DNA of 49,076 nt from Clostridia bacterium (GTDB lineage Bacteria; Bacillota; Clostridia; Christensenellales; Aristaeellaceae): the NCBI GenBank assembly GCA_017508975.1, contig JAFWQU010000009.1, positions 1 through 49,076 on the forward strand. The letters are read 5' to 3'. Position 1 is the first letter of the stretch. The number at the start of each line of letters is the position of its first letter. Position numbers and translations under genes: made by a program. A model generated the notes under the pieces. The model searched no databases. It was not told the DNA's origin and saw only the letters and a list, made by a program, of their open reading frames with translations. Below, piece after piece: positions 11,791-46,335 of this stretch.

Positions 11791-11866
11791 GAATTTCGCG
11801 CCTGCGGGCGCGACCAGGGCTTTCCGATCGCCCTGGACCTTCGGGATGCGAATTGTTCTTACTTGA
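11791..11866 (-). repeat. Dispersed palindromic element, copy b (short core)
   Basis: Minus-orientation copy of the short core (CCAGGGCGATCGGAAAGCCCTGG, CGCGCC-GGCGCG hairpin) with one recognisable end (TCTTACTTGA, reversed). It lies just 3' of the GNAT gene and in the same orientation. Confidence 0.85.
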
Positions 11867-20414: not shown

Positions 20415-20551
20415 ATACTGATCTCAGCTTAGAATGCTTATTGTCAACAGGGAGATTTCGCGCCTGCGGGCGTGACCAGGGCTTTCCGATCGCCCTGGAC
20501 CTTCGGATGCATGCTGCTGCTGGATTTGCAATTCTTACTTGAGATTGGTAT
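20415..20551 (-). repeat. Dispersed palindromic element, copy d (complete 137-bp short form)
   Basis: Complete copy on the minus strand, bounded by ATACTGATCTCAG at 20415 and CTTGAGATTGGTAT at 20551 (imperfect terminal inverted repeats). The core hairpins CCAGGGC/GCCCTGG and CGCxCC/GGCGCG are present. It lies downstream of the serine-protease gene, in the same direction. Confidence 0.9.
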
Positions 20552-20653
20552 AAGATTTCGCGGCCTGCGGGCCGCGACCAGGGCTTTCCGATCGCCCTGG
20601 ACCTTCGGGCCACATGCTGTTGCTGTATTTGCAGTTCTTACTTGAGATTGTAT
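20552..20653 (-). repeat. Dispersed palindromic element, copy e (one end missing), in tandem with d
   Basis: Same orientation as copy d and directly abutting it. It carries core and one terminus (CTTGAGATTGTAT) but lacks the other about 35 bp. Confidence 0.88.
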
Positions 20654-20689
20654 AAAACCGGCCATTCCGTTGCGGGATGGCCGGTTTTT
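20654..20689 (-). terminator. Bidirectional intrinsic terminator of the HXS operon
   Basis: The 12-bp stem AAAACCGGCCAT (20654-20665) / ATGGCCGGTTTT (20677-20688) has A and T runs on both sides. It lies 14 bp beyond the stop of the serine-protease gene, the last gene of the operon. Confidence 0.85.
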
Positions 20690-20702: not shown

Positions 20703-21569
20703 TTATTTGAAACATTTTCCGCAGGGCTCGTAGCCGTTGGCGATGGCCTCGACGAGGCTGATTTCGACGGGGGAGCGCATGTGCGAGCAGGTGGGGGTGC
20801 TGTGATACTTTTTCCCGGAACGGGTAATCCATACGACGCCCGCGTCCTGCTGTTCGCTGACCGGCAGGGACGACATGACGGCGACTGTGCCGCTGGAATC
20901 CAGCCGGGCGGTGGTGCGGCCGTCCCAGCGCTTGTAGAGCGCCTCGAGATCCTGGATCCGCACGGCCATGTTGACGTTCTGCGCCGAGGCGTAGGTCGCG
21001 GTCACGACGCCGATCACCTCGCCGCGGTCGTTGAGCAGGGCGCCGCCGCTGCTGCCGGAGGAGATCGGGGCGGTGAACTGGATCCAGTGCTTGTTTTCCC
21101 GGTTGTAGAACGCGCTGATGTTCCCGAGGGAGACCGTGTTCATGAGCCCGGCCGGGCTGCTGATCACGACGACGGGCTGCGCGCGCTTCAGGGGATCCCG
21201 GGCGTTGAGCGGCAGGGGAGAGACCCCCGGCTTCTGCTCAAACTGCAGGATCGCCAGGTCTTTGACCTCGTCCAGCGCGCAGACGCGGTAGACCGGGTAA
21301 CTCTTGTTGTTCTCGCTGACGGCGACGACGTACGCCGCGTCCTGGATGACGTGGTAGTTCGTGACCAGCAGCGAGGCGTCGAAGGCGACGAAGCCGCTGC
21401 CGACCGCGATCTTCTCCCGGCGGGCAGAGTAGACCTCCAGCATGAAAACGGAGTCCGCGGCGAGATCGATGCCGTCCACATCCTCCGAGAAGCGGTATTC
21501 CGCGAGCGCGGGCGCCCAGACGAACAGGAGCGCCAGCAGCAAAGCCCAGAAACGGATTCCTCTGCGCAT
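20703..21569 (-). CDS. Secreted trypsin-like serine protease (S1C) with Cys/His tail
   Basis: The 288-residue protein has a signal peptide (MRRGIRFWALLLALLFVWAPALA). The chymotrypsin-fold domain carries His73 (TNYHVIQDA), Asp104 (VKDLAIL) and Ser174 (SSGSSGGALLN), the complete DegP/HtrA-type triad, but no PDZ domain follows. The last 40 residues (KYHSTPTCSHM...GYEPCGKC) resemble the Ada-like metal-binding tails found on secreted Firmicute proteins. It is the last gene of the His-Xaa-Ser operon, 23 bp after hxsA. Cleavage of HxsA or of another operon product is an attractive but unproven role. Confidence 0.87.
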   Translation of the reverse strand: MRRGIRFWALLLALLFVWAPALAEYRFSEDVDGIDLAADSVFMLEVYSARREKIAVGSGFVAFDASLLVTNYHVIQDAAYVVAVSENNKSYPVYRVCALDEVKDLAILQFEQKPGVSPLPLNARDPLKRAQPVVVISSPAGLMNTVSLGNISAFYNRENKHWIQFTAPISSGSSGGALLNDRGEVIGVVTATYASAQNVNMAVRIQDLEALYKRWDGRTTARLDSSGTVAVMSSLPVSEQQDAGVVWITRSGKKYHSTPTCSHMRSPVEISLVEAIANGYEPCGKCFK

Positions 21570-21592
21570 CCTCAGCCGCCCCCCTCTCCGGA

Positions 21593-22267
21593 TTATTTCA
21601 CCAGCTTGCCGCCGCCCTTGGGCTGCGCGCCCGTGTTGAGCGCGTTGGATCCCGCCGGGGCGGGATTCGTCTGCGCGGGATCGGGCACGGAGGGCTCGAA
21701 GCTGTTGGCCTGGGTCTGCATGTTAAAGCCCAGCGACTCCGGCGCGGGCACCAGGAAACCCTTGGAGACCGGCACGGAGCCGACCTCAAGCGCTGTCGGC
21801 GTCTTGCCGACCGCGCTGACCGCGATCCGGGAGCCGGCCGCCACCGCGGAGGAGGTCAGCTCGGAGGAGGGCGGCGGGGTGGCCGCGCTCATCCGGGTCA
21901 GCACGATGTTCGGGTCGCTGCCCGCGGGACTGGCGGAGAGTCCTGTCTGCGAGGTGTTGGTAAAGCCGGCGCCGGAGGAGGTATTCACCTGCACCTCCGC
22001 CGGGGCGGAGACGTTCCGCGGAATCGGCACCGGGGTCGCGCTGCTGTGGCTGCCGTGGCGGCTGCTCGTGTGCGAGCGGTGGCTGCTGTGCGAGCGGTGC
22101 GAGGAGTGGGAACTGTGCTTCGCCAGCGCGGAATCCGCGAAGAAAACACTCATCAGCAGCACAATCGTGCCCACCGTGATGATCTTGCTGCGCGGGATCG
22201 AGCCCTCCTCGTCATAAAGAAAGTCGCTCAGGTGCTTTTCAAAGCGGGGAAATAACACGTTGCTCAT
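21593..22267 (-). CDS. hxsA: HxsA-like His-Xaa-Ser repeat protein (target of the HXS system)
   Basis: The 224-residue protein (from the ATG at 22267; an in-frame GTG lies 9 nt upstream) has three parts. Residues 1-22 are a hydrophilic N-terminus ending FLYDEEG. Residues about 28-48 are a hydrophobic helix (IITVGTIVLLMSVFFADSALA). Residues 51-76 contain eight His-Xaa-Ser units (HSSHSSHRSHSSHRSH and on). The remaining about 150 residues are Ser/Thr/Ala/Pro-rich, low-complexity and free of cysteine. This matches HxsA of the bioinformatically defined His-Xaa-Ser system, whose repeats are the presumed substrate of the paired radical SAM enzymes encoded just upstream. The segment DEEG before the helix also resembles a prepilin leader (see findings). 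Confidence 0.85.
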   Translation of the reverse strand: MSNVLFPRFEKHLSDFLYDEEGSIPRSKIITVGTIVLLMSVFFADSALAKHSSHSSHRSHSSHRSHTSSRHGSHSSATPVPIPRNVSAPAEVQVNTSSGAGFTNTSQTGLSASPAGSDPNIVLTRMSAATPPPSSELTSSAVAAGSRIAVSAVGKTPTALEVGSVPVSKGFLVPAPESLGFNMQTQANSFEPSVPDPAQTNPAPAGSNALNTGAQPKGGGKLVK

Positions 22268-22285
22268 GACCGTCACCGCCTGTCC

Positions 22286-23326
22286 TTACTTGTAGGTGAT
22301 CGACGTGCATTTTCCGTTCGACCAGACCGAGGTGTAGCGCAGTTTGTTGTCCCCGACATAGACCAGGGTGCCGTTCGGGCTGCCGTTCTTGAAGGTGCCC
22401 TTGAGGTAGAGCTTCGTCTCGTCCTTGGAGTAGTAGTAGGTGCCGGTGCCGTTCATCTTGTCGTTGCTCCAGGCGCCGACATAGTGCGCGCCGGACCGCC
22501 AGATGTAGGTGCCTTTGCCGTCCTTCTTGCCGTTCTTGAGGGTGCCCTCGTACTTGTCGCCGTTGGAATAGCGGATGGTCACGTTGCCGCTGAACTCGTT
22601 CTTGTTCAGCTTGCCCACGAGGGTCGTGCCGTTCTGGTACTTGATGGTCACGTCCGGCTTGACCTTGCCGCCCTGCACGTCGCGGGTGGCCTCGCCGCCG
22701 GGAACGTCGTAGGTCACGGTGCCCTTGTTCAGGACGCCGTTGGCGAAGGTGCCCTCCAGCACCGTGCCGTCCGCGAGCGTCAGCTTGCCGGTGCCGTTGA
22801 TGGCGTCGCTCTTCCACTCACCGGTGTACTTGTCGCCGTTGAGCCAGGTGAAGGTGCCGCGCCCTTCGCGCTTCTGCTTGGCGAAGGCGCCCTCGTAGGT
22901 GCCGATGCCCTGGAGGACCAGCGTGCCCTTGGCGCCGATCTTGTCGTCCGCCCACTGGCCGGAGAAGGAGACCGGCTGGCCCTGCTCGGCCTTTTTCGCG
23001 TAGCTCCAGGTGAAGACGCCCTGGCCGTGCCGCAGGCCGTCCTTGAAATCACCGACGTAGGTGCCGAGACCCGGCCAGGTCATCTCGCCCTTGCCGGTGA
23101 TCACGTCGTTTTTCCACTGGCCGCTGTAGCTCTCGCCGGTGCTCCAGCGGTAGGAGCCGGTGCCGTTGCGGATGCCGCCCGGGAGCGTCTCGCCCTCATA
23201 GACGGAGCCGTCGCTGTAGTTCAGTGTCTCCGGCTGATCCGCGGCCGCGGGCACGCAGAACAAGACCATCCAGCACAGCATGACTGCCAGCAGCGCCGAA
23301 CCGGTCCGCAAAATCTTCTTTCTCAC
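22286..23326 (-). CDS. Secreted MORN-repeat protein in the HXS operon
   Basis: The 346-residue protein has a signal peptide (about 1-29, ending VPAAA) followed by some nine MORN-type repeats (pattern YxGxWxxDxxxGxGxxxxxxGxxYxG, for example YSGQWKNDVITGKG, YTGEWKSDAINGTG, YEGTLKNGKKDGKG). These span almost the whole mature chain as a beta-hairpin rod. Its GTG start overlaps the hxsB stop by 4 nt, so it is translationally coupled to the maturase. MORN rods bind lipids or proteins in known cases. Here it could scaffold the modified HxsA at the surface, which is inference; MORN proteins are not among the core Hxs families I know. Confidence 0.87.
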   Translation of the reverse strand: MRKKILRTGSALLAVMLCWMVLFCVPAAADQPETLNYSDGSVYEGETLPGGIRNGTGSYRWSTGESYSGQWKNDVITGKGEMTWPGLGTYVGDFKDGLRHGQGVFTWSYAKKAEQGQPVSFSGQWADDKIGAKGTLVLQGIGTYEGAFAKQKREGRGTFTWLNGDKYTGEWKSDAINGTGKLTLADGTVLEGTFANGVLNKGTVTYDVPGGEATRDVQGGKVKPDVTIKYQNGTTLVGKLNKNEFSGNVTIRYSNGDKYEGTLKNGKKDGKGTYIWRSGAHYVGAWSNDKMNGTGTYYYSKDETKLYLKGTFKNGSPNGTLVYVGDNKLRYTSVWSNGKCTSITYK

Positions 23327-24708
23327 ACCTGGTCACTCCATTCCTGCAGCATCTCAAGCACGTCGGGATCCTGATCATATAAATAATTAAACAGCAGGTC
23401 CAAAATTCCTTTATGGATCTGACATTTTTCGCGGGAGAGATGGGTCATGCTCCCGTGCAGCGCGTAGTTCACCACCGGGCAGACGCCGCAGTAGGGCTTG
23501 TACACGCAGTCGCAGCAGCCCGGCAGCGTCTCCAGCACCGAGGAGGAGCAGACCGCCCGGCAGACCGGGGACTCCATCCACTCGTCGTAGCCGTCGCGGA
23601 ACACGTTCCCCAGCCGGAAGGCGTGGTCCCCGGTCTCCGCCAGCATGCGCCCCTCGTCGCAGGTGTAGACGCTGCCGTCGGCGGTGATGGCGATCTGTCC
23701 GATCCCCGCGCCGCAGGGGGAGCGGAGCTCCATATAGTTCAGCGCCCGGCCGCGCAGGATCTTGGTGAGAAACAGCGAGGCGTACATCTCCGAGAAGGGA
23801 ATGCCCTCCCGGCGGAGCGCCAGAATCCTTTCGAAGGCGCGGCGGTAGAAGGCGAGATACGCCTCCGCGCTGTAGCCGACCGTGTCCCAGGCCCGCGCGG
23901 CGGCGCCCAGCCGGGTCAGCGGGCGCAGGAAGATCTGCCGGAACCCGTTCTCCACATAGGCGTCGACGATGGCCTCCGGCTGGGCCAGGGAGGCCGCGGT
24001 GGTGGTCTGGATCGCACTGACGGAGATCCCGGCTTCCTCGAGCATTGCCTTGCCCCTGCGCATCAGCGCGTAGGCGCTCTGCCCGCCGCGCATGGGGCGG
24101 TTGCGGTCGTGCAGCGCCTGCGGACCGTCCAGGGAGGTGGAGACCGACACGCCGTGCTCCTTCAGAAATGCCGCGATCTCGGGCGTCATCAGCGAGAGGT
24201 TGGAGACGAGGCTGAAGGATACCCGCTTGTCCGGCATCAGCTCCGGGGCGCGGGTGACCAGAAAGCGGATGACCGGGAAGTTGACCAGGGGCTCGCCGCC
24301 CTGTAACTCGATCGTGATCTCCCGGGCCGGGGTGGCCGCGATGCGCCGGAGAGCCTGTTCGGCGACGGTCTCCGTCATGCGGCAGGGTGTGTTCTCCCCG
24401 TTGGCCTGGCAGTAGACGCAGGCGTGGTTGCACTCGTTGGTGACGGCGAAGATGAACAGGCTCGTCGCGTCGAAGAGATACCGGCTCCCGTCGCGGTACT
24501 GCTCGCCGTACTCCCGGATGTACTGCTCGAAGGAACCCTGATACCAGAAGCCCTTCTCCAGGAGCTCCCGGCCCTTGCCGGAGTCCGGATCCAGCTGCCC
24601 GGAGGTGAACTGCGCGAACTCCGCGTCCGTGAGAAAGGCATACCGGCCCATGTCGTTGGTCAATAGCTTTCCGCCCCGGAAGCCGGAAAAGTAAAAGTGT
24701 GCCAGCAT
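23323..24708 (-). CDS. hxsB: HxsB-like radical SAM/SPASM maturase
   Basis: The 461-residue protein starts MLAHFYFSGFRGGKLLTNDMGRYAFLT, the N-terminal signature I associate with HxsB. The radical SAM motif is CNHACVYC (Cys93, Cys97, Cys100), the SAM-binding strand is ELQGGEPLVNF, and there is a C-terminal SPASM domain (CGAGIGQIAITADG, TCDEG, CCDCVYKPYCGVCP). HxsB and HxsC always occur as a pair in the His-Xaa-Ser system and are predicted to modify HxsA; the reaction is not known to me. The gene lies 4 bp after hxsC and overlaps the MORN gene. Confidence 0.9.
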   Translation of the reverse strand: MLAHFYFSGFRGGKLLTNDMGRYAFLTDAEFAQFTSGQLDPDSGKGRELLEKGFWYQGSFEQYIREYGEQYRDGSRYLFDATSLFIFAVTNECNHACVYCQANGENTPCRMTETVAEQALRRIAATPAREITIELQGGEPLVNFPVIRFLVTRAPELMPDKRVSFSLVSNLSLMTPEIAAFLKEHGVSVSTSLDGPQALHDRNRPMRGGQSAYALMRRGKAMLEEAGISVSAIQTTTAASLAQPEAIVDAYVENGFRQIFLRPLTRLGAAARAWDTVGYSAEAYLAFYRRAFERILALRREGIPFSEMYASLFLTKILRGRALNYMELRSPCGAGIGQIAITADGSVYTCDEGRMLAETGDHAFRLGNVFRDGYDEWMESPVCRAVCSSSVLETLPGCCDCVYKPYCGVCPVVNYALHGSMTHLSREKCQIHKGILDLLFNYLYDQDPDVLEMLQEWSDQV

Positions 24709-24712
24709 CTGT

Positions 24713-25594
24713 TCACCGCCTCGCTTCGATCGGTTCGACCCGGAACAGGCCGAGCTCCCGGGTGGAGTAGAACATCCCGCCGCAGGCCTCGCGCTCCGCG
24801 CAGTTTTCGCAGGCGTCGTCGTAGCGGATCTTCCGGGGCGAGATGCTGTTCTTCACGATCGGCCACAGCTCCCGCGGCACCGAGCAGAGGGGGAAGTTGT
24901 ACAGCCCCACGTCGATGCCGTGCCGGACGGTATACAGGATCCCCTCCCGCGCCTCCCGGACGGCCTCGCGGTAATCTACCCAGAGCTCCCCGCGCCGGGC
25001 GGCGGCACAGCCGGTCATCTCCATGGCGATCAGGTTGACGACGGTGATCCGGGTCTGCAGATCCGTAAGCATCCGGAAGGTCGGGCTGAGCTGCTCCAGG
25101 TTCCACCGGTGGGCGACGACGCGGGCCTCGATCCTGGCCGGGGAAGGGGCGAGGGCACGGATCCCCCGGATAGCCTGGGCAAAGCTGTGCGGCGTCTGCG
25201 TGATCCGGTCGTGCAGCTCCGCCGACGGCGCGTGGATCGGGATCGCGAGGCAGACGCGCTCGGTCAGGAGCGGCAGCAGCACCGAGGCGATCTCCGGCAC
25301 GGCCAGCGCGCGGCCGTTGGTGAGAATTAACACCTCCGCCTCCGGAAAGCGCTCCCGGATGAGCGCGAGGGCCGCCAGGGTGTTCCGCGCGTCGAGAAAG
25401 GGCTCGCCGCCCGTGATCGTGATATGGAAAACGGCCTGCGGGTCGATCTCCTTCAGCGCGGACCACTGCTCCGGGGCCATCGTCAGCCCGCGGCGGCGGG
25501 AGGCCAGGCTCATCGGACACATCACGCAGTTGGAGTTGCACGCCTCCGTCACGTAGACGCACAGGTCGTCGGGCTCCAGAAAAATACCGGGCAT
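24713..25594 (-). CDS. hxsC: HxsC-like radical SAM enzyme (partner of HxsB)
   Basis: The 293-residue protein has the radical SAM motif CNSNCVMC (Cys19, Cys23, Cys26) very near its N-terminus (EPDDLCVYVTEACN) and the SAM-binding strand HITITGGEPFL. Its C-terminal region has a shorter Cys cluster (CENCAEREACGG) rather than a full SPASM domain. Size, position next to the HxsB-like protein and the two HxsD-like genes upstream identify it as the HxsC partner. The substrate is presumably the His-Xaa-Ser stretch of HxsA. It ends 4 bp before hxsB and starts 7 bp after the membrane peptidase gene. Confidence 0.88.
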   Translation of the reverse strand: MPGIFLEPDDLCVYVTEACNSNCVMCPMSLASRRRGLTMAPEQWSALKEIDPQAVFHITITGGEPFLDARNTLAALALIRERFPEAEVLILTNGRALAVPEIASVLLPLLTERVCLAIPIHAPSAELHDRITQTPHSFAQAIRGIRALAPSPARIEARVVAHRWNLEQLSPTFRMLTDLQTRITVVNLIAMEMTGCAAARRGELWVDYREAVREAREGILYTVRHGIDVGLYNFPLCSVPRELWPIVKNSISPRKIRYDDACENCAEREACGGMFYSTRELGLFRVEPIEARR

Positions 25595-25601
25595 CGGCGG
25601 T

Positions 25602-26612
25602 TCACCTCAGCATTCGGAACAGCATCCAGAGTGTAAAGCCCAGGGTGATCATCATCGCGAAGGGGACCTTGCGGACGATCCAGATGGTCTCGCTCCCGCG
25701 GGCGGACTTTCCCCAGCGGCGCACCGACTCGGCCTCGGTCTCCGAGATCCGGGCGGTGATCTCCTCCGAGGGGTCGACAGGGAGGTTCCGGACCCGCGAA
25801 GCCTGGAAGCGGAAAACCGCCTCCGCCGAGAGGATCATGCCGCGCTTTACGCTGGCCGTGGGGATCAGCTGATAATCGTACAGCGACGCGAAGCGCTGCA
25901 GCAGGAGCGCGCCCAGGATCAGCGCCGCGTTCTGCCAGGTGGGCGGGCTCGGGCGCCAGACACCGAGGGCAAAGGTCAGGACGATCGCCAGCCCGTGCAG
26001 TGCCACGACGACCCACTTCCCCGTCCAGCCCAGCCGGCTGCACAGGAAGGCGTAAGCGACCATGACGACCGAGAAAAGCAGCTCATGCCCCCGGACGAAG
26101 GCCGGCAGGAGGGCCGCAAAGAGGCAGTACAGGGCGGTGGTCTCGACCAGGATCGCGCCGTAGCCTTTGGCGAAGGCCGCCGGGCTGAAGGAGCGGCGCT
26201 TCCGGGGCTCCTTCCGGAGCAGCCGCCAGAGGGAGTCGAGCAGCGTCCAGGCGAAGGCCGGCAGGAAGATGAACAGATAGGGCACCACGGCCATGGCCAG
26301 CGAATCCCCCTCGATCAGCCGCGGCGGCACCAGAAAATAGAGCACGGCAAACAGCTTCGCATCCCCGGCGGCCCAGAGCTTCGAGGCGTACATGGCGACC
26401 GCCAGCACCGCCGCGATCGACAGGTTGGCCAGCCAGACGGGGTAGAAGGGGAGGCTGCCGGCGAGCATTCCGCCGATGTGGCAGACCGCGCCGGCGGCCA
26501 GACCGATCAGCAGATAGCGGTTGGGGACCGTGCTGTCCCGGAAATCGCGGACGGAGCACACGACGCCCAGCCCCAGCAGGAGCGCCAGCAGCGCGGCGTC
26601 AAAGATCATCAT
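25602..26612 (-). CDS. A24 prepilin-peptidase-like membrane protein in the HXS operon
   Basis: The 336-residue protein has about seven membrane helices. It shows both aspartate motifs of the A24 (type IV prepilin/preflagellin) peptidases: DFRDSTVPN with Asp23 in the first cytoplasmic loop and WAAGDAKL (a GxGD variant with Ala, Asp84). The N-terminal methylation domain of PilD is absent. The last about 60 residues form a hydrophilic region followed by one helix (PFAMMITLGFTLWMLF). The protein is longer than usual single-domain A24 enzymes (about 150-250 residues). Its ATG overlaps the end of the HxsD-like gene. I infer that it processes a class III-type leader, possibly that of HxsA. Confidence 0.78.
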   Translation of the reverse strand: MMIFDAALLALLLGLGVVCSVRDFRDSTVPNRYLLIGLAAGAVCHIGGMLAGSLPFYPVWLANLSIAAVLAVAMYASKLWAAGDAKLFAVLYFLVPPRLIEGDSLAMAVVPYLFIFLPAFAWTLLDSLWRLLRKEPRKRRSFSPAAFAKGYGAILVETTALYCLFAALLPAFVRGHELLFSVVMVAYAFLCSRLGWTGKWVVVALHGLAIVLTFALGVWRPSPPTWQNAALILGALLLQRFASLYDYQLIPTASVKRGMILSAEAVFRFQASRVRNLPVDPSEEITARISETEAESVRRWGKSARGSETIWIVRKVPFAMMITLGFTLWMLFRMLR

Positions 26613-26820
26613 GGGCGGCTCCGCGCATCGATACGGTCAGATTCAGGACATAGTTGGCGAACTCCAGCTGTGTCAGCCGGAGGGGATAGCGGCAGCGGGA
26701 AAAACGGCAGCGGCAGACGCCGCCCTCCTCCTCGAGGGTGATCCGGGCCAGCCCGCTGTAATCCTGGATGGCCTTCCGGACGGCCTCCGGGGCGTAAAGG
26801 CTCGTGTCAAACTCAATCAT
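26599..26820 (-). CDS. HxsD-like small protein 1
   Basis: The 73-residue protein (ATG at 26820) begins MIEFDTSLYAPEAVRKAIQDYSG and continues with LARITLEEEGGVCRCRFSR. This is the pattern of the N-terminal half of HxsD (FDTSLYxxxAxxxAxxxYS). It ends LEFANYVLNLTVSMRG, comparable to the LLNDYxLRE end of that family. It overlaps the downstream peptidase gene by 14 nt and its ATG lies in the last 8 nt of the other HxsD-like gene. HxsD is a conserved, small, non-enzymatic component of the system; a leader-binding or adaptor role is a guess. Confidence 0.72.
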   Translation of the reverse strand: MIEFDTSLYAPEAVRKAIQDYSGLARITLEEEGGVCRCRFSRCRYPLRLTQLEFANYVLNLTVSMRGAAHDDL

Positions 26821-27181
26821 GGCCGTCAAACCAGCCTTTCAGGATGTCCTGCGGGTCGTCGGGAGCCTCCGCCGGCGCGGCCGCCTCCGGGGCCCCGGCG
26901 GTGTCGACCACGGTGGAGGCGAAGGCGCGCGCGAGGATCAGCTTGCGGACCTCCGCCGTCTTTTCCAGGAGGCCGCTGCGGAGCTCCTGCGCGATCAGCT
27001 CGTTCTCGAAGGCCTCCGGCCGCAGTTCACAGCCCTCCTTGCAGGTCCAGGAGACCAGCCAGCGGCCGTTCCCGTCCTGGACCAGATGGAGATACACCCG
27101 ATCCGTAAAGCTGTACGCGGTCTTCAGCAGCACCTCTTTGGAATACAGCTGCTGATCGAGCTGAAGGGTCACCGTGTCCAT
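26813..27181 (-). CDS. HxsD-like small protein 2 (first gene of the HXS operon)
   Basis: The 122-residue protein begins MDTVTLQLDQQLYSKEVLLKTAYSF. It contains FENELIAQELRSGLLEKTAEVRKLILARAFAS, which matches the HxsD-type (LLNDYxLRE) ending with NEL-xxQ-LR. It adds an Ala/Pro-rich acidic tail (EAAAPAEAPDDPQ). A GGAGG ribosome site precedes the ATG. It is the first gene after the GNAT-HD gene (38 bp away), so the operon may be read from that gene or from a promoter-like block at its 3' end. Two tandem HxsD-like genes instead of one is noteworthy. Confidence 0.75.
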   Translation of the reverse strand: MDTVTLQLDQQLYSKEVLLKTAYSFTDRVYLHLVQDGNGRWLVSWTCKEGCELRPEAFENELIAQELRSGLLEKTAEVRKLILARAFASTVVDTAGAPEAAAPAEAPDDPQDILKGWFDGHD

Positions 27182-27207: not shown

Positions 27208-27236
27208 GATACCATGAAATCAGCGGTTTGACCAGC
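27208..27236 (-). promoter_or_regulatory. Promoter-like block before the HXS operon (shared with 30161)
   Basis: The minus-strand block reads TTTCATGGTATC with a TTCAAA-like upstream element. A closely similar block stands at 30161-30189 upstream of the membrane-protein/fusion operon. Its overlap with the stop codon of the GNAT-HD gene shows it is not just a coding remnant. Promoter function is inferred. Confidence 0.4.
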
Positions 27237-37902: not shown

Positions 37903-38039
37903 ATACTAATCTCAAGTAAGAATTACAAATCCAGCAACAGCATGTGACCGAAGGTCCAGGGCGATCGGAAAGCCCTGGTCGCGCCCGCAGGCGCGAAATC
38001 TCCCTGTTGACATTTAGCACACGATACTGAGATCAGTAT
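37903..38039 (+). repeat. Dispersed palindromic element, copy h (complete 137-bp short form)
   Basis: Runs from ATACTAATCTCAAG (37903) to CTGAGATCAGTAT (38039). It sits in the PAP2 direction between converging genes, after the terminator. Confidence 0.92.
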
Positions 38040-39355: not shown

Positions 39356-39411
39356 GCCGAAGGTCCAGGGCGATCGGAAAGCCCTGGTCGCGGCCCGCAG
39401 GCCGCGAAACG
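39356..39411 (+). repeat. Dispersed palindromic element, copy j (short core)
   Basis: Core only, plus orientation (GGTCCAGGGCGATCGG, GCCCTGG, CGCGGCC-CGCA-GGCCGCG). The 39064-39421 stretch has no gene and consists almost wholly of copies i, j and the second hairpin pair. Confidence 0.85.
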
Positions 39412-43319: not shown

Positions 43320-43456
43320 ATACCAATCTCAAGCAAAAAATGCAAATCAAGAAAGGGCATGTATCCGAAGGTCCAGGGCGATCGGAAAGCCCTGGTCGCG
43401 CCCGCAGGCGCGAAATCTCACTGTTGACGATAAGCATATTAAACTGAGAACGGTAT
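43320..43456 (+). repeat. Dispersed palindromic element, copy k (complete 137-bp short form)
   Basis: From ATACCAATCTCAAG (43320) to TGAGAACGGTAT (43456), 16 bp after the fucO-like stop and in the same orientation. Confidence 0.92.
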
Positions 43457-46207: not shown

Positions 46208-46335
46208 ATACGGATCTCAAGTATAATACTAATCTCAAGTAAAATTACTAATCAAGAAAAGGCATGTAACCGAAGGTCCAGGGCGATCGGAAAGCCCTGG
46301 TCGCGCCCGCAGGCGCGAAATCTCACTGCTGACAA
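46208..46335 (+). repeat. Dispersed palindromic element, copy l (right end lost, left end duplicated)
   Basis: Two left ends (ATACGGATCTCAAG at 46208 and ATACTAATCTCAAG at 46226) precede one core. The right end stops after CTGCTGAC. This is the only clear case in which the copy is not in the direction of the adjoining gene. Confidence 0.85.

Follow-up and report, generated by a model that had tools for sequence, protein, structure and literature searches.

Introduction

The HxsABCD, or His-Xaa-Ser (HXS), system has as its common parts HxsB, HxsC, HxsD and a target protein with HxS repeats; HxsA3-type targets and HxsD-like proteins are also named NCBIfam families. One paper calls the system putative (PMC9062424, citing Haft and Basu), another just lists its genes (PMC8446631), and no report of HXS chemistry or of an HXS role was found in the open-licence literature. 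Here we describe an HXS operon on the minus strand of contig JAFWQU010000009.1 (assembly GCA_017508975.1) from a Clostridia bacterium, whose 49,076 nucleotides we call the window. To the described system this locus adds an A24-type membrane peptidase and a MORN-repeat protein, both conserved in close loci, and an S1C serine protease found in one clade. Its target protein differs by carrying an EE(G/A) leader and a membrane helix. The plasmid HXS loci inspected (Roseomonas, Aeromonas, Leptospira and Nostoc) have no annotated A24 or MORN gene alongside.

The one relative of the added peptidase in the Protein Data Bank is FlaK, which according to PMC4985597 cleaves after a conserved Gly preceding a transmembrane helix and has two essential Asp residues on the cytoplasmic side. 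The HXS A24 protein shares with FlaK and type IV prepilin peptidases the PF01478 domain, two conserved Asp residues and a putative Gly/Ala site before a helix. It differs in being encoded beside radical S-adenosylmethionine (SAM) genes rather than pilus genes and in having its own long C-terminal part, and its candidate substrate is acidic before the Gly and lacks Glu at position +5.

A possible chemical parallel is provided by triceptides, in which a His or aromatic residue at position i is linked to i+2; known three-residue cyclophanes include C2(His)-Cbeta and Phe-Cbeta(Ser) links (PMC11002830). HXS systems likewise combine radical SAM/SPASM enzymes with a His i / i+2 spacing, but they differ in pairing HxsB with HxsC, in presenting a long tandem array on a surface-type protein, and in an HxsB that reaches the cut-off of no cyclophane-maturase model. 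Neither a combination of prepilin peptidase, MORN and radical SAM proteins (open-licence literature) nor A24-type leader removal for a radical-SAM-modified target (literature searched) was found, and a word search of the main text of a review on leader proteases of ribosomally synthesized and post-translationally modified peptides (RiPPs; PMC10885120) returned no prepilin, A24 or HtrA. Although the HXS system is already known, the conserved partnership with A24 and MORN and the leader correlation described below look unreported.

Results and Discussion

A proposed dedicated A24 peptidase for the HxsA leader

We consider it somewhat more probable than not that the locus is an HXS operon of the HxsA3 type with a dedicated A24 leader peptidase, which would cut HxsA after the motif EE(G/A). 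This reading was assessed by comparing 87 hxsB loci, namely that of the window, six from sampled genomes and 80 from named contigs, the latter being the best of 559 candidates. Relatives in named contigs were found with an alignment query (a single-protein scan gave no confirmed relative), and the window and related loci supplied the sequences for the neighbourhood profiles. The A24 gene lies directly 5′ of hxsC in all 54 close loci, a group that was itself drawn by an A24 score above 80 bits; requiring HxsC at 200 bits or more yields the same 54. The other 33 loci have no HxsC at 200 bits, and five of them have an A24 of 50-80 bits.

The presumed catalytic site of the window protein comprises Asp23 and Gly83-Asp84. 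Both Asp residues are kept in 58 of 59 aligned rows, and the remaining row is cut by a contig end. The GxGD-like motif reads A-A-G-D in the window protein and thus retains only its second Gly. Members of the family share the long C-terminal part, which has conserved residues. PF01478 is matched by 32 of 35 members, and PF06847, the archaeal C-terminal domain, by four of 35 (E ≤ 0.01 in both cases). When the family profile was compared with the Protein Data Bank, FlaK (3s0x) was the sole match up to E 10, with an E value of 3.2e-4.

The candidate substrate site precedes the helix of HxsA. Among the 52 HxsA proteins found in the 54 close loci, the expression [DE][EQ][ED](G/A) stands before the helix in every case, although it was derived from these 52 sequences and is descriptive there. 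The residue at −1 is Gly in 50 and Ala in two; position +5 is occupied by Asn (20), Ser (17) or Gly (15). The distance from the motif to the first HxS unit is near-constant, at 28 residues in 42 of the 52. The leader before the helix would be a natural docking site for the modifying enzymes, and its end looks like an A24 site.

The peptidase also follows HxsB from genome to genome. An alignment of 12 HXS-type A24 proteins (A2), searched against 200 genomes of the window's family, matches the same six genomes as HxsB and none of the other 194. Three of the six (G000, G026 and G103) supplied rows of A2, and the weight of the comparison therefore lies in the 194 negatives.

The 33 more distant loci allowed the leader motif to be compared with the presence of A24, which was sought by whole-genome search in 30 cases and within the locus in three (L069, L087 and L091); the leader was searched in both loci and genomes. 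Leader and A24 occur together in 22, the leader alone in one, neither in ten, and A24 alone in none; A2 itself includes L069, L070, L072 and L087, and 12 of the leaders belong to the alignment A3, so that these match by construction, while the A24 matches in the genomes of L064 and L077 include fragments lying at the end of a contig. Within the Myxococcota of the tree, one clade (L062, L065, L079, L081, L084 and L086) has neither leader nor A24, and in its sister clade five members (L054, L064, L075, L078 and L092) have both and L090 has neither. The HxS targets of three plasmid systems (L095-L097) lack an EE(G/A) leader, and a search limited to the plasmids found no A24 on them.

Evidence against leader cleavage and alternative readings

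Several observations weigh against a leader peptidase. Glu at +5 is the rule for type IV pilins and is found in none of the 52 close HxsA proteins. Acidic residues precede the leader Gly, in contrast to the positive charge that PMC4985597 gives for the leaders of FlaK substrates and pilins. In the co-occurrence test, L073, a 0.8-Mb metagenome-assembled genome (MAG), has the leader without A24. The fetched stretches of distant loci often contained the leader without A24, and it was whole-genome searches that then found A24 beyond these stretches. Of the ten MAGs with neither feature, nine show no HxS protein in the locus or by TIGR03979, a model that also misses known HxsA of this type in genomes where the leader search succeeded, and these nine test little. 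The tenth, L084, does have an HxS protein; its leader is diverged (leader profile E 0.003) and was counted as lacking EE(G/A). The MAGs are incomplete, and because related rows are not independent, the 33 loci do not amount to 33 independent cases. Finally, HxsB falls below every cyclophane-maturase cut-off (GrrM/OscB, 76.5 versus 310 bits; YhhB, 59 versus 445; FxsB, 54.3 versus 370).

The strongest rival reading, though an unlikely one, is that EE(G/A), which is also a good candidate for a mere maturase docking site, serves for docking only, with signal peptidase I freeing HxsA at an AxA site. A24 would then have a different function in the pathway, for example the removal of signal peptide remnants after cleavage or the tethering of HxsC to the membrane. 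An AxA-like pattern does follow the helix in 47 of the 52 close HxsA proteins and would let ordinary signal peptidase I free the HxS domain without A24. In the 54 close loci the A24 gene has hxsC and not hxsA as its neighbour, which fits this proposal, as does the solitary leader of L073. Against it, the motif and A24 agree in presence or absence in 32 of the 33 distant loci, the −1 residue is limited to Gly or Ala, and the plasmids bearing HXS systems with other leaders carry no A24.

It is quite improbable that HxsA is a pilin-like subunit that keeps its helix after an A24 cut and is built into a filament or pseudopilus. It resembles proteins with class III signals in its leader, Gly/Ala site and hydrophobic helix, and a T2SSF gene is present elsewhere in four of six genomes, but the +5 Glu is lacking, an AxA-like site follows the helix, and no T2SSF match was found in G148 (91% complete) or G000 (66% complete).

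The HXS A24 is the only PF01478 match (E ≤ 0.01) in five of six genomes searched, G705 having two further matches; the HXS A24 of G026, G148 and G705 does not itself reach the cut-off of PF01478, which means that another divergent A24 might equally go unnoticed. Three of the genomes with a single match (G026, G149 and G103) also carry pilus-type T2SSF genes. Even with this last pattern in its favour, the view that A24 is the general prepilin peptidase of the genome and sits in the operon by chance is most improbable, for none of the 194 family genomes that lack HxsB has the HXS type, which shows a long C-terminal part common to its members and in G705 stands beside two other A24 genes.

A proposed HXS pathway

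For an operon with A24 as leader peptidase we infer the following pathway, including its reactions, their order, the cut site, the cross-link and the parts played by MORN and S1C. The HxsA leader would be bound in the cytosol by HxsB and HxsC, with HxsD and the HxsD-like protein as helpers. Since radical SAM chemistry takes place in the cytosol, the HxS units should be modified before export. HxsB and HxsC would act on the HxS array, perhaps making His-to-Ser side-chain cross-links (i to i+2); the His i / Ser i+2 spacing fits three-residue cyclophanes. Modified HxsA may then be inserted N-in, and A24 would cut at the cytoplasmic face after EE(G/A) in the manner of a prepilin or preflagellin peptidase, thereby taking off the leader used for recognition. 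A second cut, signal peptidase I-like and located behind the helix, probably releases the HxS domain. MORN could be the partner of HxsA on the outer face of the membrane, and in the window's clade S1C may act on the HxsA tail.

A broader proposal, which we advance tentatively as somewhat short of probable, is that a widespread HXS branch uses its own A24 as the leader peptidase of a radical-SAM-modified target, cleaves it at the membrane after EE(G/A) and in this way places cross-linked His-rich rods on the cell surface. If A24 does act as a leader peptidase, the list of RiPP leader proteases would be widened. The conserved leader, the dedicated peptidase and the partner protein make the pathway testable, with a predicted cut site, order of steps and cell location, and the pairing of an EE(G/A)-leader HxsA with an HXS-type A24 provides a marker for genome mining.

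Organization of the operon

The eight genes run from 27181 to 20703 on the minus strand in the order hxsD, hxsD-like, A24, hxsC, hxsB, MORN, hxsA and S1C (Table 1), the same set, place and strand as in the preliminary description. That account also held that all junctions overlap or are shorter than 25 bp, and indeed the largest gap is the 23 nucleotides between hxsA and S1C. Overlaps of 8, 14 and 4 nucleotides join hxsD to hxsD-like, hxsD-like to A24, and hxsB to MORN, respectively. Gaps of 7 and 4 nucleotides separate A24 from hxsC and hxsC from hxsB, and 9 nucleotides lie between MORN and hxsA, or 18 if hxsA begins at ATG 22267. Upstream, a same-strand open reading frame (ORF) ends at 27220, 38 nucleotides 5′ of hxsD.

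The preliminary description also has the operon end at one terminator. A terminator-like hairpin does follow S1C; its 3′ arm terminates in UUUU with no longer T run, and a terminator consensus scan did not include it among its entries. A promoter scan gave one site, within hxsB, versus 0.7 expected, and there was no Rfam match and no tRNA.

Table 1. Positions of the HXS operon genes, parts of HxsA and repeat elements in the window
Feature	Position	Strand	Basis or remarks
hxsD	26813..27181	-	TIGR03976, 68.6 bits (cut-off 50)
hxsD-like	26599..26820	-	NF038315, 67.9 bits (cut-off 41)
A24 aspartyl membrane peptidase, HXS type	25602..26612	-	PF01478, 31.8 bits (cut-off 26.5)
hxsC, radical SAM enzyme	24713..25594	-	TIGR03977, 242.9 bits (below cut-off 267.9)
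hxsB, radical SAM/SPASM-type enzyme	23323..24708	-	TIGR03978, 483.8 bits (cut-off 370)
MORN-repeat protein	22286..23326	-	PF02493, 129.9 bits, 6 stretches; N-terminal hydrophobic stretch (signal or anchor)
hxsA (HxsA3 type)	21593..22267	-	From ATG, alternative start GTG 22276; NF038309, 98.6 bits (cut-off 65)
hxsA leader ending FLYDEEG	22202..22267	-	Motif conservation; putative A24 cut after Gly
HxsA transmembrane helix and AxA-like site (SALA)	22121..22201	-	Sequence analysis
Eight HxS units of HxsA, predicted HxsB/HxsC target	22040..22117	-	Translation
S1C secreted serine protease (HtrA-like), Cys-rich tail	20703..21569	-	PF13365, 94.3 bits (cut-off 27.6); PDZ not seen
Terminator-like hairpin	20654..20688	-	-23.4 kcal/mol, z -5.8; none of 200 shuffled sequences folds as well
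28-base repeat core	11812-11839, 20474-20501, 20576-20603	-	Exact copies
28-base repeat core	37953-37980, 39362-39389, 43370-43397, 46275-46302	+	Exact copies

HxsA and its modifying enzymes

HxsA had been described as carrying eight HxS units after a hydrophobic helix, and both this arrangement and a match to the HxsA3 model hold. Read by eye, the units are HSS HSS HRS HSS HRS HTS .. HGS HSS; a scripted count of nine arises because HLS in the leader is included. The classic HxsA model TIGR03979 is not passed (23.5 versus 121.65 bits).

Profile searches bore out the assignment of the two radical SAM enzymes for HxsB, which passes its curated model, and with a reservation for HxsC, the only one of the pair to miss its cut-off, although it aligns to positions 28-291 of the 292 in that model. 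CxxxCxxC and four C-terminal Cys residues are invariant in HxsC (eight of eight aligned rows), as are CxxxCxxC and seven C-terminal Cys residues in HxsB (seven of seven). The nearest relatives of HxsB with solved structures are 5wgg, a radical SAM domain protein, and anaerobic sulfatase maturases. The HxsD profile found nothing convincing in the Protein Data Bank (best E 0.014). PADLOC gave superfamily-level matches only, to viperins for the radical SAM proteins and to RT-protease fusions for S1C. An apparent A24-HxsC fusion in L037 was rejected, as a scaffold gap (a run of N) lies within one long ORF.

The tails of HxsA vary by clade, which suits a surface protein. A C-terminal repeat-like domain is present in L019, L021 and L023, a C-terminal hydrophobic stretch with a Lys tail in L029 and L047, and low-complexity tails elsewhere. 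Counted in residues after the motif, the median tail is 218 in the six loci with S1C, 202 in six that lack both MORN and S1C, and 126 in the remaining 39, with L041 excluded as cut by a contig end. A long tail was considered as a trait specific to S1C loci and was rejected, the six loci without MORN and S1C being long-tailed as well. HxsA proteins without a MORN neighbour (L019, L021, L023, L029 and L047) are longer-tailed, as if MORN were replaced by another domain.

MORN and S1C proteins

The preliminary description assigned the A24, MORN and S1C genes to processing, display or release of HxsA. Both A24 (54 of 54 close loci) and MORN (46 of 54) do recur beside other hxsBC pairs, but S1C is confined to one clade (six of 54). 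A24 has a specific candidate substrate site, and the suggested roles of MORN and S1C draw on position, topology and clade.

A 17-residue stretch with mean hydropathy of at least 1.85 lies near the N-terminus in 44 of 46 MORN proteins, and MORN and HxsA would therefore face the same side of the membrane. In S1C, the His, the Asp and the SSGSSGG sequence are retained in six of six homologues, as judged by eye. The protein fails the curated HtrA/DegP models, the best being TIGR02037 at 99.7 versus 416.2 bits with the protease domain alone aligned. Its C-terminus (20703-20830, minus strand) carries the pattern KKYH-x4-C ... C-x2-C, which is kept in all six homologues, is possibly metal-binding and has no Pfam match.

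Distribution and gene order

A sample of 200 genomes from the window's family contains six with HxsB, counting that of the window; the order sample has three in 396, all already in the family sample, and the phylum sample two in 398, namely the window's own and G705. None of ten listed genomes of the same genus has HxsB, and its distribution is therefore patchy. Records with this HXS branch come from Bacillota, Myxococcota, Elusimicrobiota, Omnitrophota, Synergistota, Spirochaetota and candidate phyla, and isolates with both an EE(G/A)-leader HxsA and an HXS-type A24 include Clostridium ljungdahlii, Eubacterium ramulus and Butyrivibrio. HxsB relatives also occur on 409 plasmid records, 316 of them from Klebsiella; 325 of the 409 are predicted to be conjugative.

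Besides A24, the 54 close loci contain HxsD (53), HxsA (52), MORN (46), the HxsD-like protein (38) and S1C (6), some of the missing genes falling at contig ends (L015 and L016); among the other 33 loci neither MORN nor S1C was found. The commonest order, HxsD-HxsD2-A24-HxsC-HxsB-MORN-HxsA, is seen in 19 loci, a second, MORN-HxsA-HxsD-A24-HxsC-HxsB, in 11, and the exact order of the window in four. Despite this variation in block order, the gene after MORN is HxsA in 44 of the 46 loci in their listed order; L050, where both genes lie on the opposite strand, also has MORN first and makes a 45th case, and L033 is reversed. S1C follows HxsA in all six of its loci, which form one clade (support 100/98).

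Among the 22 distant loci with both leader and A24, the peptidase gene is on the contig and strand of hxsB in ten. It lies within the fetched locus in L069, L070, L072, L087 and L091. In L063, L066, L067, L068 and L071 it is some 12 to 23 kb downstream of hxsB, on a contig taken to be the same because the lengths are equal. In the remainder the contigs are short or differ from that of hxsB. HxsC-like radical SAM genes usually adjoin A24 in the linked distant loci. Long same-strand arrays of HxsC-like genes stand between hxsB and A24 in L063, L066, L067, L068, L070, L071, L087 and L108-L116.

An interspersed repeat in the window

A repeat about 95 bp long is interspersed in the sequence; it forms two GC-rich hairpins, has no Rfam match and is possibly of the repetitive extragenic palindromic (REP) kind. 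Its 28-base core occurs in seven exact copies in the window, with none expected, and the repeat has at least 61 matches in the 1.52-Mb assembly (40 of 268 candidates were scored). Two tandem copies stand after the hairpin of the operon.

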